From positions 1 through 34,949 of the forward strand of contig JACMPL010000034.1 in assembly GCA_014377525.1 (NCBI GenBank): a stretch of DNA of 34,949 nt, written 5' to 3'. The notes under the pieces were generated by a model. It was given only the letters and a program-made list of their open reading frames with translations, was not told the origin of the DNA and did not search any database. Numbering within the stretch: the stretch's first letter is position 1; every line of letters begins with the position of its first letter. This document shows positions 18,497 through 27,929 of this stretch, one piece after another. The position numbers were made by a program, and so were the translations under genes. Source of the stretch: Candidatus Saccharimonadota bacterium. Its GTDB lineage: Bacteria; Patescibacteriota; Saccharimonadia; Saccharimonadales; UBA4665.

Positions 18497-19192
18497 ATGG
18501 CGGTAATGAAAACTGCGCATCCAGAAACGACCCAAAGCATCTCGAACTTATTAGCAACGACTGAAATGTATGGCACTCCCCACGCAGCTTGTATGGCAAT
18601 GATGATGCAGGCCAGTGGTATTACGGAGGAATTGCCTGACATTCAACACATTGCTTCCTTTGCACGAGTTGATCGCTTTAGACCGGTTACGACAGTCCTT
18701 GGCGCAGCCTGCTCGTTCAATGATATTGGTTTCGACGTGAGATTCGTGGGCGCGCCGGACACGGAGATGCTTAATGAGCAGCCCCGAGCAATGCACGAAT
18801 GGCAACAAATATTGGAGTCTAGAACGAGGACGAGTTTTTCGAGCGTGGCACCGATAGAAGCGGACGTCGTTAAGCTGCTAGCGCCTGGTTCGCGGACGCC
18901 GTGGCTGACAATGCTGTATGTTAATCCGGGCGCCCTTGAGCAGTCATTTGACGGTGTTCATCCGACGCTCGTCCAGAATATAGCGGCTGATCATGCTAAA
19001 GTTGTCGTTTCCGACCCGGGCTCCGAGCATCACGAAGGGCAAACATATCGATCAATTTTGCTTGCACGCGCTCTTGGCAGTAGCACATTGCATAATGGTG
19101 CGATCAGTTTACTGGCTATCCGCCGGCGGACGTCAGCCGACGAACGGGTTGTCATCAGGAACACTCAGCCAGCCGGTGCAAAATATAATTAG
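18497..19192 (+). CDS. Unknown protein, weakly C39-like (cysteine peptidase fold?)
   Basis: A 231-residue cytosolic protein I do not recognise with confidence. The segment YGTPHAACMAMMMQASG (about 25-41) resembles the active-site helix of C39-like papain-fold peptidases (C-G-P-A-x-L-A-M), with Cys32 as possible nucleophile. A later DHAKVVVSDPGS (about 171-182) resembles the His strand and the following D-P of that fold. The middle and the linker between them are unlike any C39 protein I know. It might be a peptidase, a transglutaminase-like enzyme or an inactive relative. An alternative start at the ATG at 18506 (MKTAHPE) is equally possible; neither has a clear ribosome site. It stands divergent from yajQ and 48 nt before pheS, from which it is separated by a good -10 box. 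Confidence 0.6.
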   Translation: MAVMKTAHPETTQSISNLLATTEMYGTPHAACMAMMMQASGITEELPDIQHIASFARVDRFRPVTTVLGAACSFNDIGFDVRFVGAPDTEMLNEQPRAMHEWQQILESRTRTSFSSVAPIEADVVKLLAPGSRTPWLTMLYVNPGALEQSFDGVHPTLVQNIAADHAKVVVSDPGSEHHEGQTYRSILLARALGSSTLHNGAISLLAIRRRTSADERVVIRNTQPAGAKYN

Positions 19193-19220
19193 CAAATCGT
19201 ATCGCCGCTTAAACAGACTT

Positions 19221-19229
19221 TGCTATACT
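19221..19229 (+). promoter_or_regulatory. Extended -10 (TGC-TATACT) of the pheST operon
   Basis: TGCTATACT ends 11 nt before the ATG at 19241, predicting a 4-5 nt leader. It decides the pheS start: the in-frame TTG at 19220 would lie upstream of the transcript. No T-box leader is present. Confidence 0.65.
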
Positions 19230-19240
19230 TGTTAACAGAT

Positions 19241-20290
19241 ATGACATATGCAAACTCCGAAATTACTGCTGCTGCCGAAATTCTGCATACCCGTTTGCAA
19301 ACTTTGGCAATCAAATCAGATATTCTTAGGGCTGTGGAGTTAAAAGCTCTTTATGATCAACTTAAAACGCTACCCACCGACCAAAAGGGTAGTTTCGGAA
19401 AAGAAGTAAACCAGTTACGCAACGAGCTGCAAGCGGTCGTTGACGACGCAAGCAGCCAAACCGAAAAGCTACCGGCAATCGATGTTACGGCTCCCTTCGA
19501 ATGTAATACTAAACCGGAGGATCGTCCAGCCCTGTTGTCCTCCGCAACGGGCAGCGAGCATCCTTTAACTATCGAAATTACGACTATGCTTGATATCTTC
19601 ACGCGCATGGGCTTTTCGGCCATCGAATCACGTGAGTTGGACGACGACTATCACATGTTTGGCGCACTTAATTTTCCTGAAGATCATCCAGCCCGTGGCG
19701 ATTACGATACGTTTATGACCGTCCAAACCGATGCTAACGGCAAGCGATTAATAGCACCCGCTCATACGTCGGTAATGCAGAACCGTATCTTAAAAGCCAA
19801 CAAAATAAATCTTGAGGCCGGAAAACCAATCGCGGCTGTGATGCCAGGCCGTGTGTTCCGCAACGAAGATCTTGATGCTACCCACGAGCATACGTTTCAT
19901 CAGCTCGAAGGCATCTATGTCGACCGAGGCGTCCATGTTGGCATGCTGATCGCGACGATCACGGCGTTTTTGAATGAATATTTCCATCAGCAGCTCACGA
20001 CGAAAATTCAGCCATTTTATTTTCCATTCACGGAACCAAGTTTTGAGTTTGCACTGCAACGTCCAGACGCTCTTAAAAAAGATGATTCCGAAGAACAGAA
20101 ATGGTTGGAGCTAATGGGCTGTGGAATGATTCATCCCAATGTTCTGCGGGAAGCCGGAATCGACCCTGAAATTTACAGTGGCTTCGCCTGGGGTTACGGT
20201 ATCGAACGGTTAGTTATCATGAAATACGGTATCGAGGATATTCGTCATTTCGAAGCGGCTAAGCTTGATTTCCTGAGGCAGTTCGCATGA
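19241..20290 (+). CDS. pheS: Phenylalanine-tRNA ligase alpha subunit
   Basis: A 349-residue class II aminoacyl-tRNA synthetase catalytic subunit, which with PheT charges tRNA-Phe. Residues 1-90 form the coiled-coil arm. The catalytic domain has GRVFRNEDLDATHEHTFHQLEG (motif 2, about 200-221) and GFAWGYGIERLVIMKYGI (motif 3, about 315-332), and the strand with QPFYFPFTEPSFEF between them. Length and motifs are normal. The ATGA at its end overlaps the pheT start by 4 nt, which means translational coupling. The start is set by the -10 box, and MTYANSEITAAAEIL is a normal beginning. Confidence 0.97.
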   Translation: MTYANSEITAAAEILHTRLQTLAIKSDILRAVELKALYDQLKTLPTDQKGSFGKEVNQLRNELQAVVDDASSQTEKLPAIDVTAPFECNTKPEDRPALLSSATGSEHPLTIEITTMLDIFTRMGFSAIESRELDDDYHMFGALNFPEDHPARGDYDTFMTVQTDANGKRLIAPAHTSVMQNRILKANKINLEAGKPIAAVMPGRVFRNEDLDATHEHTFHQLEGIYVDRGVHVGMLIATITAFLNEYFHQQLTTKIQPFYFPFTEPSFEFALQRPDALKKDDSEEQKWLELMGCGMIHPNVLREAGIDPEIYSGFAWGYGIERLVIMKYGIEDIRHFEAAKLDFLRQFA

Positions 20291-25093: not shown

Positions 25094-25648
25094 ATGGCAC
25101 GGAAACGTGATCGAGCGTTCGCACTCTTCGGAGCCGGACTATTTTTATTAACATCATCAGCTTTGACTATCGCCGTTGTCTACAGCCTCTTTGAGCAAAA
25201 GAACAAAGATAAAGCCGTTAGCACTCCGACAAGTCCAGCACAGACGCAGGAGAAAACCGTGGATCCATCAGCAAAACTACAAGGTAAACCACTGGCTGGT
25301 TTCACGCCCGTTGCAAGCATCCCTTCATTACAAAAAGTCGACACGACCGAAGGATCTGGTGATGTCGTCAAGTCTAGCGACACCGTAACCGTTGATTACA
25401 CTGGTGCAGTTGCTGCTACCGGCGTCGTCTTCCAAAGCTCAAAAGACTCCGGTCAACATGTCAGCTTTGGACTAAATCAAGTCATTAAGGGTTGGACCGA
25501 AGGTGTCCCCGGCATGAAAGTCGGTGGTACCCGACGCCTACTGATTCCGGCTGCCGAAGCATACGGTGCAAATCCTCCAGCCAGTTCGGGCATTCCTGCT
25601 AACGCTGATCTCGTGTTTGACATTACGCTTTACAAAATTGGCAGTTAG
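25094..25648 (+). CDS. Membrane-anchored FKBP-type peptidyl-prolyl isomerase
   Basis: A 184-residue protein with an N-terminal transmembrane anchor (about 9-32), a flexible Thr/Pro/Gln-rich linker (35-75) and an FKBP domain (about 78-184) facing outside. Landmarks are DTVTVDYTGAVAATGVVFQSS, VIKGWTEGVPGMKVGGTRRLLIP, and EAYGANPPASSGIPANADLVFDITL. The Y-x-G...G-x-x-F, V-I-x-G-W and Y-G pattern of active FKBPs is kept. It would speed folding of exported proteins. AGAGGAGA at 25082-25089 is its ribosome site. It closes the pheST-ABC-Nudix-FKBP run and precedes a good promoter for glutaredoxin. Confidence 0.92.
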   Translation: MARKRDRAFALFGAGLFLLTSSALTIAVVYSLFEQKNKDKAVSTPTSPAQTQEKTVDPSAKLQGKPLAGFTPVASIPSLQKVDTTEGSGDVVKSSDTVTVDYTGAVAATGVVFQSSKDSGQHVSFGLNQVIKGWTEGVPGMKVGGTRRLLIPAAEAYGANPPASSGIPANADLVFDITLYKIGS

Positions 25649-25672
25649 GACGTAGAAAGTCCGTAGCATGAC

Positions 25673-25701
25673 TTGCTTTAGGCATAAACGCTATATATAC
25701 T
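25673..25701 (+). promoter_or_regulatory. Glutaredoxin promoter: TTGCTT-17-TATACT
   Basis: TTGCTT at 25673-25678, exactly 17 nt, and TATACT at 25696-25701. The grx ATG is 47 nt later with a ribosome site AGAGGA, so the transcript has a normal leader. It starts the redox group. Confidence 0.7.
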
Positions 25702-25748
25702 AATAAATACAATCTCAAAACACCATATAAGCTGAAACAGAGGATCCA

Positions 25749-25997
25749 ATGCCAAAAGCCGTCACGATATTTACTACTAACACCTGTGGTTACTGCCAGA
25801 TGGTTAAGAAATATTTGTCAGCCAAGGGTATTGGCTATGAGGAAGTTAATTTAGACATATATCCTCACCGTCAAGCTGAAGCGATCAGCCTGAGTGGCGC
25901 TATGACAGTGCCAGTCACTGTCGTAACCAAAGACGATGACAGCCAAGAGGTAATTGTCGGCTATAATCTGGCGAAGTTGGCGCCGGCAGTCGCGTAG
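25749..25997 (+). CDS. Glutaredoxin
   Basis: An 82-residue glutaredoxin. It reduces protein or mixed disulfides through Cys13 and Cys16 of the CGYC motif; Gln follows, then the usual Met-Val-Lys. The cis-Pro is in MTVPVTVV (about 53-60), and the C-terminal helix is short. Because no glutathione pathway is visible, it may receive electrons from the TrxB encoded next, as NrdH-type redoxins do; the text has the NrdH-like hydrophobic start. The gene stops with TAG at 25995-25997 and the next ATG follows directly at 25998, so the downstream redoxin frame was probably once translationally linked. Confidence 0.92.
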   Translation: MPKAVTIFTTNTCGYCQMVKKYLSAKGIGYEEVNLDIYPHRQAEAISLSGAMTVPVTVVTKDDDSQEVIVGYNLAKLAPAVA

Positions 25998-26255
25998 ATG
26001 GTAACAGTTTACGGCGCCAGCTGGTGCGGTGATTGCCACGCTTCGCGACAGGTGCTCGACTCGCTTGGCATAGTTTACTCCTACAAGGATATCGACAGCG
26101 ATGATGCATTGTAGCAAGAAATGCTTGCGCTCGTCGATGGCCGGAACGTTATACCGACAATCGTGCTCGACAACGGAACAACATTACAAGAACCGAGCAA
26201 TGCTGAACTCACAGCGGCGCTGCAATTAAATGATTCAAAGACAAAGGAATTAACG
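25998..26255 (+). pseudogene. Second glutaredoxin-like gene broken by in-frame TAG
   Basis: ATG at 25998 opens a second glutaredoxin/mycoredoxin-like frame: MVTVYGASWCGDCHASRQVL, with active-site pair C10 and C13. It stops at TAG 26112-26114, but the same frame continues with the rest of the fold: QEMLALVDGRNVIPTIVLDNG, which has the cis-Pro of N-V-I-P-T and normal spacing, to about residue 78. The frame then runs without stop into the thioredoxin reductase. The conserved text on both sides says that one nonsense mutation hit a recently working gene. Readthrough or restart at the Met after the stop (26121) cannot be excluded, but that would lack the active site. Confidence 0.7.
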
Positions 26256-27221
26256 ATGACAGATCAGGCTACTACACCGACACATGACGTAATTATCGTT
26301 GGTGCCGGGCCTTGTGCACTAACAGCAGCAATTTATACCACGCGTGAAGACATAGACACGTTGTTATTCGAACGTGGCGTCGTCGGTGGATTAGCTGCTG
26401 TAACCGAAAAAGTTGATAACTACCCTGGGTTTGCCGACGGTATAGAAGGTCTGACTCTAGCTCAAAACCTTCAAAAGCAGGCTGAACGATTCGGTGCGGT
26501 AATCGAACTCGGTGAAGTTACCGGACTAACTGATGAAGGTAAGTTTAAGCGCTTAGATACTACTAGCGGCGACATGCTTGCTCGTGTTGTCTTGCTAGCA
26601 ACTGGTAGCGATTACAAAAAGATTGGTGTCCCTGGCGAGGATACTTATTACGCTCGGGGCGTTCATTACTGTGCAACATGTGACGGTGCATTTTATCGTG
26701 GCAAAACGCTAGCAGTAATTGGTGGTGGTAACTCAGCTATTCAAGAAGCAATCTTTTTGACTCGTTTCGCAACTCATATCGATCTGCTCGTACGCTCGAC
26801 GGTGAAAGCTAGTGATGTACTCAAGCAGGAGATCATGAAACTTGTTGATGCTGGGAAGATAACGATTCACCTTGGTGTTTCGATTGACGAAATCGCCGGT
26901 GAAAATAACGAGGTCACCAAGGTGCTGGCTACAAAATCAGCGACAGCGGAAAAAGTCGAATTTCCAGTCGACGGTGTCTTTGTCTTTGTCGGTCTCGACC
27001 CGAATTCGCAGTTTATAAAGAACACGACTATTCGCCGCGATGAGATCGGCCTAGTTATCACCGACCAAAATCTTCAGACCAGTATGCCTGGTGTATTTGC
27101 GGCTGGGGATATCCGCTCCGGCGCGACCATGCAGATTGCGAGTGCAACCGGCGAAGGCGCAACTGCTGCTCTCAAGATCCGAGAATATCTTGAAGGTCAG
27201 TCGCACCCACCACAGAACTAA
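26256..27221 (+). CDS. trxB: Thioredoxin reductase
   Basis: A 321-residue FAD- and NADPH-dependent disulfide reductase that feeds electrons to thioredoxin or glutaredoxin-like proteins. The FAD dinucleotide motif is DVIIVGAGPC (11-20), the redox pair is Cys139-Cys142 in YCATCDG, the NADPH motif is VIGGGNSAIQEA (about 154-165), and the second FAD motif is GVFAAGDIRS (about 280-289). The start is set at 26256 because AAAGGA lies 7 nt upstream at 26243-26248 and MTDQATTPTHDVI is a natural beginning. Longer frames from 26121 would add the end of the broken redoxin. GAGPC replaces the usual GAGPA; an extra Cys there is uncommon. Confidence 0.95.
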   Translation: MTDQATTPTHDVIIVGAGPCALTAAIYTTREDIDTLLFERGVVGGLAAVTEKVDNYPGFADGIEGLTLAQNLQKQAERFGAVIELGEVTGLTDEGKFKRLDTTSGDMLARVVLLATGSDYKKIGVPGEDTYYARGVHYCATCDGAFYRGKTLAVIGGGNSAIQEAIFLTRFATHIDLLVRSTVKASDVLKQEIMKLVDAGKITIHLGVSIDEIAGENNEVTKVLATKSATAEKVEFPVDGVFVFVGLDPNSQFIKNTTIRRDEIGLVITDQNLQTSMPGVFAAGDIRSGATMQIASATGEGATAALKIREYLEGQSHPPQN

Positions 27222-27233
27222 CGACGCCCAATG

Positions 27234-27929
27234 TTAATAGCCAGGGAAGTAGTCACTAAGTAATTGGCGCCGGTGTACGCCTTTTTTATAGAGGTCTTCC
27301 GTAAGTGTTTGAATCATGAGCTCAGGTCCTGACAAATAAATCATCGTCTCGTCGTTTGGCTTCTCCAGCCCCAAGATAAAATCGGCCGTTATACGGCCTC
27401 GCTCGCCGCCCCAACTATCTGAGGGTTGCGACACGATGGTCGTGACGTGTTGGCCAGCGGACTCAAAAACGTCTTGAAAAATAATTTCTTCTTCACTCGA
27501 TACGCCGTAGATCATTTTAATGTCCCGCGTATCATTGGTCGCTGCAATCCACTGCAGCATACTACAATAAGGAGTTACGCCAATCCCGCCGGCCACAAAA
27601 ATCAGCGGCGTTTGAACTAGTCGGGGCAGTACGAAATCGCCTAACGGATCGCTCATACTGAGCTTATCGCCAGGCTTGAGCCGCTTTAAGGCATTTTTGA
27701 AGCTACTGCCACGTAAGTCAGCAAACCTCGTCGTAATACTGAGAAGTTTGCTCGTTGGAGACGACGACAATGTAAACCAGCGGCTATCGCCGCGGTCATC
27801 AACATCGTCATGCGGTAGTCTAAATTCAACAAACTGGCCGGCCGTGTAGCGCAGATGCCGTTCGGGTGTAAAAAAGAATGTACTGATGTTGTCCGATTCG
27901 GCTCGCTCACTTAGAAAAGTTACCTGCAT
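27234..27929 (-). CDS. FNR-like FAD/NAD(P)-binding oxidoreductase
   Basis: A 231-residue ferredoxin-NADP reductase-type flavoenzyme without an iron-sulfur domain. The FAD part has GQFVEFRLPH and RWFTLSSSP (R-x-Y-S-type motif with F for Y, about 51-59), the NAD(P) part has FVAGGIGVTPYCSMLQW (about 113-129), IYGVSSEEE, and YLSGPELMI. The last residue is an aromatic, GY, as is common at the flavin stacking position. It would pass electrons between NAD(P)H and an unknown partner. It starts 4 nt after the GDPD gene, so the two form one unit, and it ends convergent to trxB. Confidence 0.88.
   Translation of the reverse strand: MQVTFLSERAESDNISTFFFTPERHLRYTAGQFVEFRLPHDDVDDRGDSRWFTLSSSPTSKLLSITTRFADLRGSSFKNALKRLKPGDKLSMSDPLGDFVLPRLVQTPLIFVAGGIGVTPYCSMLQWIAATNDTRDIKMIYGVSSEEEIIFQDVFESAGQHVTTIVSQPSDSWGGERGRITADFILGLEKPNDETMIYLSGPELMIQTLTEDLYKKGVHRRQLLSDYFPGY

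Follow-up and report, generated by a model that had tools for sequence, protein, structure and literature searches.

Does the single in-frame TAG that splits a glutaredoxin-like domain ahead of a thioredoxin reductase mark a gene fusion that has just been broken, a fusion that is still translated in full, or a base that the living genome does not carry? We studied this locus in a stretch of 34,949 nucleotides (hereafter, the window, meaning the whole of the DNA analysed), which makes up contig C16 of a 97% complete draft genome (890,971 bases, 40 contigs). The features of the locus are collected in Table 1. A fusion frame of 407 codons runs from 25998 to 27221, closes with TAA at 27219-27221 and is interrupted solely by the TAG at codon 39. 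An earlier note, made from the letters of the window, had described a redoxin that is complete except for this TAG, with WCGDC before it and an N-V-I-P-T segment after it, in a frame that stays open into trxB. Translation and Pfam and NCBIfam matches bore out this description, and no further stop was found up to the TAA. The interval covered by that note, 25998-26258, ends with the start codon of TrxB (ATG 26256-26258). The CxxC and the cis-Pro segment are thus both encoded, but they are split by the TAG and do not form one translated chain in the window; in 19 relatives they lie in a single chain. The ATG at 25998 directly abuts the TAG of grx1, and no Shine-Dalgarno site was seen before it. 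The separate grx1, the interrupted domain and TrxB share one frame (25749-27221), parted by just two TAG codons, and grx1 is also in frame with the fusion at three other loci (L036, L037 and L117).

Table 1. Features of the interrupted fusion locus, in window coordinates.
Feature	Position	Strand	Remarks
FKBP-type isomerase	25094-25648	+	
grx1, separate glutaredoxin	25749-25997	+	NTCGYC; complete, TAG stop; Pfam Glutaredoxin E 2.5e-16
N-terminal half of mycoredoxin-like domain	25998-26111	+	WCGDC at 26022-26036
In-frame TAG	26112-26114	+	codon 39 of the fusion frame
C-terminal half of mycoredoxin-like domain	26115-26225	+	NVIPT; cis-Pro codon CCG at 26154-26156; undecayed
ATG past the TAG	26121-26123	+	six bases past the TAG; opens the longest mechanical ORF into trxB (366 aa); no Shine-Dalgarno site
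Interdomain linker	26226-26255	+	longer than in aligned fused relatives
AAGGA, Shine-Dalgarno-like	26244-26248	+	7 bases upstream of ATG 26256
trxB, low-molecular-weight thioredoxin reductase	26256-27221	+	intact; redox CATC at 26670-26681

The 38 codons before the TAG, searched alone, matched Pfam Glutaredoxin (PF00462) with 35 bits (E 1.7e-8), and reading across the TAG raised the score to 45.7 bits (E 7.3e-12), past the curated cut-off of 22.9, with a match that extends to residue 58. Because the pre-TAG codons match by themselves and the score climbs across the stop, we consider the glutaredoxin domain to be beyond chance; the post-TAG segment searched alone in Pfam gave no match. The best NCBIfam redoxin family was mycoredoxin, TIGR02200, over residues 2-76 (64.1 bits, below the curated 89.5), and the solved structure nearest to the same domain of the fused relative L004 is Rv3198A (PDB 2lqo, E 5.3e-9). 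The reductase part, in which the CATC pair is present, scored 145 bits against PF07992 (cut-off 26.1) and found its best NCBIfam family in TIGR01292, at 305.5 bits, below the curated 343.45; two intact relatives also fall below this cut-off (L004, 300.7; L005, 320.1). In another intact relative, L064, TrxB is approximately 30-40% identical to solved TrxB structures and its fold matches 1trb with a Z of 34.4. The AhpF family TIGR03140 gave 235.5 bits and fell short of its curated cut-off of 502.9.

The earlier note had proposed that the ancestral arrangement might have been a redoxin-TrxB fusion. We searched for the frame in related genomes (59 of 60 match, the window's own genome included), in genomes of the same family (86 of 93 match at E 1e-30) and in genomes drawn from the order (265 of 392 match at E 1e-60), and compared 94 distinct loci. 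A WCxxC glutaredoxin and TrxB form one uninterrupted ORF in 19 of the 94, a figure that is not a prevalence, as the loci are best matches together with 14 stretches picked because their rows looked fused or interrupted. At 74 loci trxB has no attached domain, and the window is the only locus in which the domain is present yet interrupted. Among five congeners, the fusion is found in G001, G002 and G005 and not in G003 or G004; an intact orthologous ORF also occurs in G072, of the same family. The family search placed an intact fusion in 13 of the 86 matching genomes, namely in 11 stop-free rows and in G085 (L119/L042) and G011 (L022), where the listed stops sit at the 3' end; this count leaves rows with stops from G073, G099, G076, G008, G094, G095 and G078 unmatched to read loci. 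Because the ORF is uninterrupted at 19 of 94 loci, three of the five congeners included, we conclude that the ancestral gene was a real fusion, which gives strong support to that proposal. Separate grx and trxB genes with stop codons between them, the arrangement that the note had set against it, were indeed seen in many relatives, but the glutaredoxin ahead of trxB in most unfused relatives is of the NTCxYC type, like grx1, and is not the interrupted domain. Glutaredoxins of this type adjoin trxB or the fusion in most relatives. We found no description of the fusion in Saccharibacteria in the literature, as far as listings and the opening parts of abstracts cover it.

At the column of the TAG, each of the 18 aligned fused relatives carries a sense codon, most often for K (10 relatives), then for E (4), A (2), G (1) and R (1); L170, which is cut at a contig start, is counted among the 19 fused loci and is absent from this alignment. 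After the TAG, the window is 68% identical to L004, 61% to L006, 55% to L005 and 54% to L034, and over the same segment pairwise identity among these four intact relatives is 54-82%. The window retains all 12 glutaredoxin columns that do not vary among 13 core fused relatives, and 119 of 124 such columns in TrxB. Its GAGPC stretch of TrxB has a Cys at residue 106 of the fusion frame (26313-26315), where all 13 core fused relatives have Ala. Because the invariant columns are kept and the post-TAG identity lies within the range of the relatives, we see no sign that the domain has long been free of constraint, and its undecayed part therefore implies that the stop is very recent, is an assembly error or is read through. 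Relative-rate counts in the pre-TAG half gave 8 changes in the window against 1 or 2 in L004 with L006 or L005 as outgroup, and 4 against 5 with L034; in TrxB the counts were 25-26 against 17-18. We read this unevenness as the speed of the lineage and not as decay, because the window's end branch is also long in TypA (0.16, the longest of seven genomes); going by these proteins, the lineage seems to evolve fast in general. In comparisons of the window with its relatives, synonymous sites have reached or almost reached saturation (pS 0.67-0.96), so that pN is the only usable part of dN/dS, and no conspecific genome was found for comparison.

The lack of decay fits a very recent nonsense mutation, one of the two outcomes raised in the earlier note, and we think it reasonably probable that a mycoredoxin-TrxB fusion gene suffered such a change and kept TrxB through an internal start. 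An undecayed domain would also be expected if the TAG were absent from the living genome or confined to a minority strain, as a base error or a strain mixture, and the real fusion were intact as in the congeners. The genome is a 40-contig draft, most of its near relatives are labelled as MAGs, and the TAG is one substitution away from sense codons for residues that relatives use at the column. However, the TAG does not lie in a homopolymer, the 407-codon frame holds no second stop, and an internal Shine-Dalgarno site with an ATG, absent from most fused relatives, makes a tolerated stop more plausible. We regard an error or mixture, which the earlier note had touched on solely by proposing a read-level check, as a serious possibility, albeit an unlikely one.

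Amber readthrough, the other outcome raised in the earlier note, would have some ribosomes make the full 407-residue fusion, in addition to TrxB from the internal start. The frame is open and conserved on both sides of the TAG, and the base after the TAG is C, which makes for a weak termination context in some organisms. Against this, the genome encodes RF1 (C36; 443.8 bits, cut-off 423.25). The suppressor tRNA(CUA) that the note had proposed looking for did not appear among 32 Rfam tRNA matches; ARAGORN assigned the anticodons of 31 of them, and the remaining one, truncated at a contig end, shows CAT on inspection by eye. The set is incomplete (without, for example, His, Asp and Ile-GAT), and because several ordinary tRNAs are lacking from it, the absence of a suppressor is weak evidence. 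A search for PylS gave two weak matches below the cut-off; in controls, 13 of 14 genomes gave matches, one of them above the cut-off. TAG is also a common terminator here, ending 14 of 33 window genes hand-picked from the ORF list (TAA ends 15 and TGA 4), and in 11 of these 14 cases another stop follows in frame within 15 codons. Behind the gene at 18497-19192, whose stop is a TAG, the frame remains open over 365 codons, across the gene at 19220 (18497-20290 in the window). Conservation of the stop among relatives, with coding on both sides, was not observed, the column being sense in 18 of 18. Predicted folding of the RNA behind the TAG is no stronger than that of shuffled sequences (z +1.04), and an Rfam search of the window returned no match. 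Readthrough thus gained no support from these tests, and we consider it improbable.

The reductase could be made from a start of its own. A Shine-Dalgarno-like site precedes the ATG at 26256; neither the ATG at 25998 nor that at 26121 has one. Over the corresponding 38 codons, 4 of 19 fused relatives have a start in frame with a Shine-Dalgarno match of at least 5 bases (L025, L163, L164 and L170, with ATG in two). Starts of this quality are present in 21 of 74 unfused trxB genes, and control 38-codon stretches inside trxB contain one in 58 of 654 cases, with ATG in 14 of 654. Because of these counts in unfused and fused genes, we judge the window's internal start to be good: by its sequence, it matches many free-standing trxB starts in quality and is unusual for a fused gene. 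In a scan of 25600-27400 we found one promoter-like site, on the opposite strand, which is fewer than in shuffled sequences, and five terminator-like sites (1.7 expected), of which one lies inside trxB and the other four are on the opposite strand.

According to the nonsense reading that we favour, the fusion gene, intact in relatives, would have taken a single change at codon 39 very recently. Translation from the ATG at 25998 would now stop at the TAG and yield a useless 38-residue stub, and TrxB alone would come from the ATG at 26256 with its AAGGA. A reductase serving the remaining separate glutaredoxins would be retained because TrxB would be made from the internal start, and the window would show one step in the loss of the attached domain.

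Two other uses of these start codons can be envisaged. In an old and stable split, two products would be functional, the 38-residue stub and a TrxB extended by half a redoxin; the latter would begin at ATG 26121, which lies six bases past the TAG and opens a 366-aa frame, and termination-reinitiation is possible. Yet this ATG has no Shine-Dalgarno site, the stub is without the cis-Pro half of the fold, the extension is without the CxxC, and the arrangement is absent from all relatives among the 94 loci; we hold it to be the least probable of the explanations. It is also conceivable, though very improbable, that the TAG is a working switch, at which low readthrough gives the full fusion and AAGGA-ATG gives free TrxB in a set ratio. 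In three intact fusions of another family, f24 (L025, L163 and L164), the linker has an in-frame ATG or GTG that is preceded, at nine bases, by AAGGAG. To judge from these sites, TrxB might be made by itself in these three as well, a hint that two products may be characteristic of the gene. If the switch were real, one gene would make two reductase forms.

How the fusion came and went was traced in a TrxB tree of 93 rows, from which one short row, L172, was left out and in which the window was counted as fused. The fused state needs approximately nine changes, against 18 for shuffled labels, and at least six of them fall on well supported branches. Because so many changes are needed, the domain must have been gained or lost many times in the order. 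The window pairs with the fused L004 with support of 80/90 in TrxB and with weaker agreement in TypA (67/77), a placement that has moderate support only. We also looked for remnants of the domain in gaps of at least 60 bases between grx1 and trxB, at 28 of 68 unfused loci with a settable gap, using six-frame translation and a profile of the fused domain; none was found, the best domain E being 1.0. Stepwise decay of the kind that a nonsense change would begin is therefore unseen elsewhere, which counts against the favoured explanation, as does the fact that both domain families score below their NCBIfam cut-offs. The grx1-trxB gaps of L008 and L011 share a block of DNA that includes a small palindrome (CACCGTACT..AGTACGG). 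The translated prints of L034, L049 and L050 resemble this block by eye, and the palindrome is absent from the window.

A stop of this sort is ordinary in itself, but it draws attention to the mycoredoxin-TrxB fusion, which is patchily spread in Saccharimonadia and would give these bacteria, whose genomes are very small, a compact electron chain of the AhpF kind. The window may catch a lineage in the act of dropping the attached domain and keeping the reductase through an internal start, and domain loss of this kind would offer a testable way for fused domains to separate again.

By analogy with AhpF, electrons in the intact relatives would pass from NADPH to FAD, to the CATC pair, to the CxxC of the attached glutaredoxin and on to a substrate. 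The genome encodes one AhpC-TSA protein, which is a possible electron acceptor, and two further intact glutaredoxins; of these, the one on C18 (WCAFC) could replace the lost domain. In AhpF, the N-terminal domain, which consists of two fused thioredoxin folds, relays electrons to the substrate. The likeness to AhpF (TIGR03140; 1hyu, 4o5q and 4xvg) lies in an N-terminal CxxC domain of thioredoxin fold that precedes a TrxB-like flavoprotein. A profile built from the fusion sequences could be aligned over both domains (positions 9-390) with 4o5q and 1hyu. We modelled the intact relative L064 with AlphaFold using 13 fused sequences (mean pLDDT 78.5, pTM 0.57). The model has a glutaredoxin fold at approximately residues 7-80 and a poorly placed linker at 84-90; because of the pTM of 0.57, its domain placement is not trustworthy. 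In VIA-align, the rows covering both domains are those of 4xvg and 4o5q, with large rmsd; for 4xvg the match spans model residues 3-399 with a Z of 32.5 and an rmsd of 16.4, the latter probably owing to a difference in domain placement. AhpF differs in having two N-terminal folds, whereas here there is one of glutaredoxin type, with the window's stop inside it: the L064 model shows one fold before the reductase, and the window frame has one Pfam redoxin stretch.

The attached domain resembles mycoredoxin (GlrX_actino, TIGR02200; Rv3198A, 2lqo), its best NCBIfam and PDB match, with which it shares a WCxxC motif; unlike mycoredoxin it is fused to a reductase, and its score lies under the family cut-off. 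Similarly, TrxB (TIGR01292) is the best family for the reductase part and has the CATC pair in common with it, but a redoxin is attached at the N terminus in the relatives and the score again lies under the cut-off. NTRC, TrxB-Trx fusions and TGR likewise hold a redoxin and its reductase in one chain. NTRC bears its thioredoxin at the C terminus, and TGR joins a glutaredoxin to the high-molecular-weight type of reductase. The Saccharimonadia fusion is thus a variant of the known redoxin-reductase fusions represented by AhpF, NTRC and TGR.
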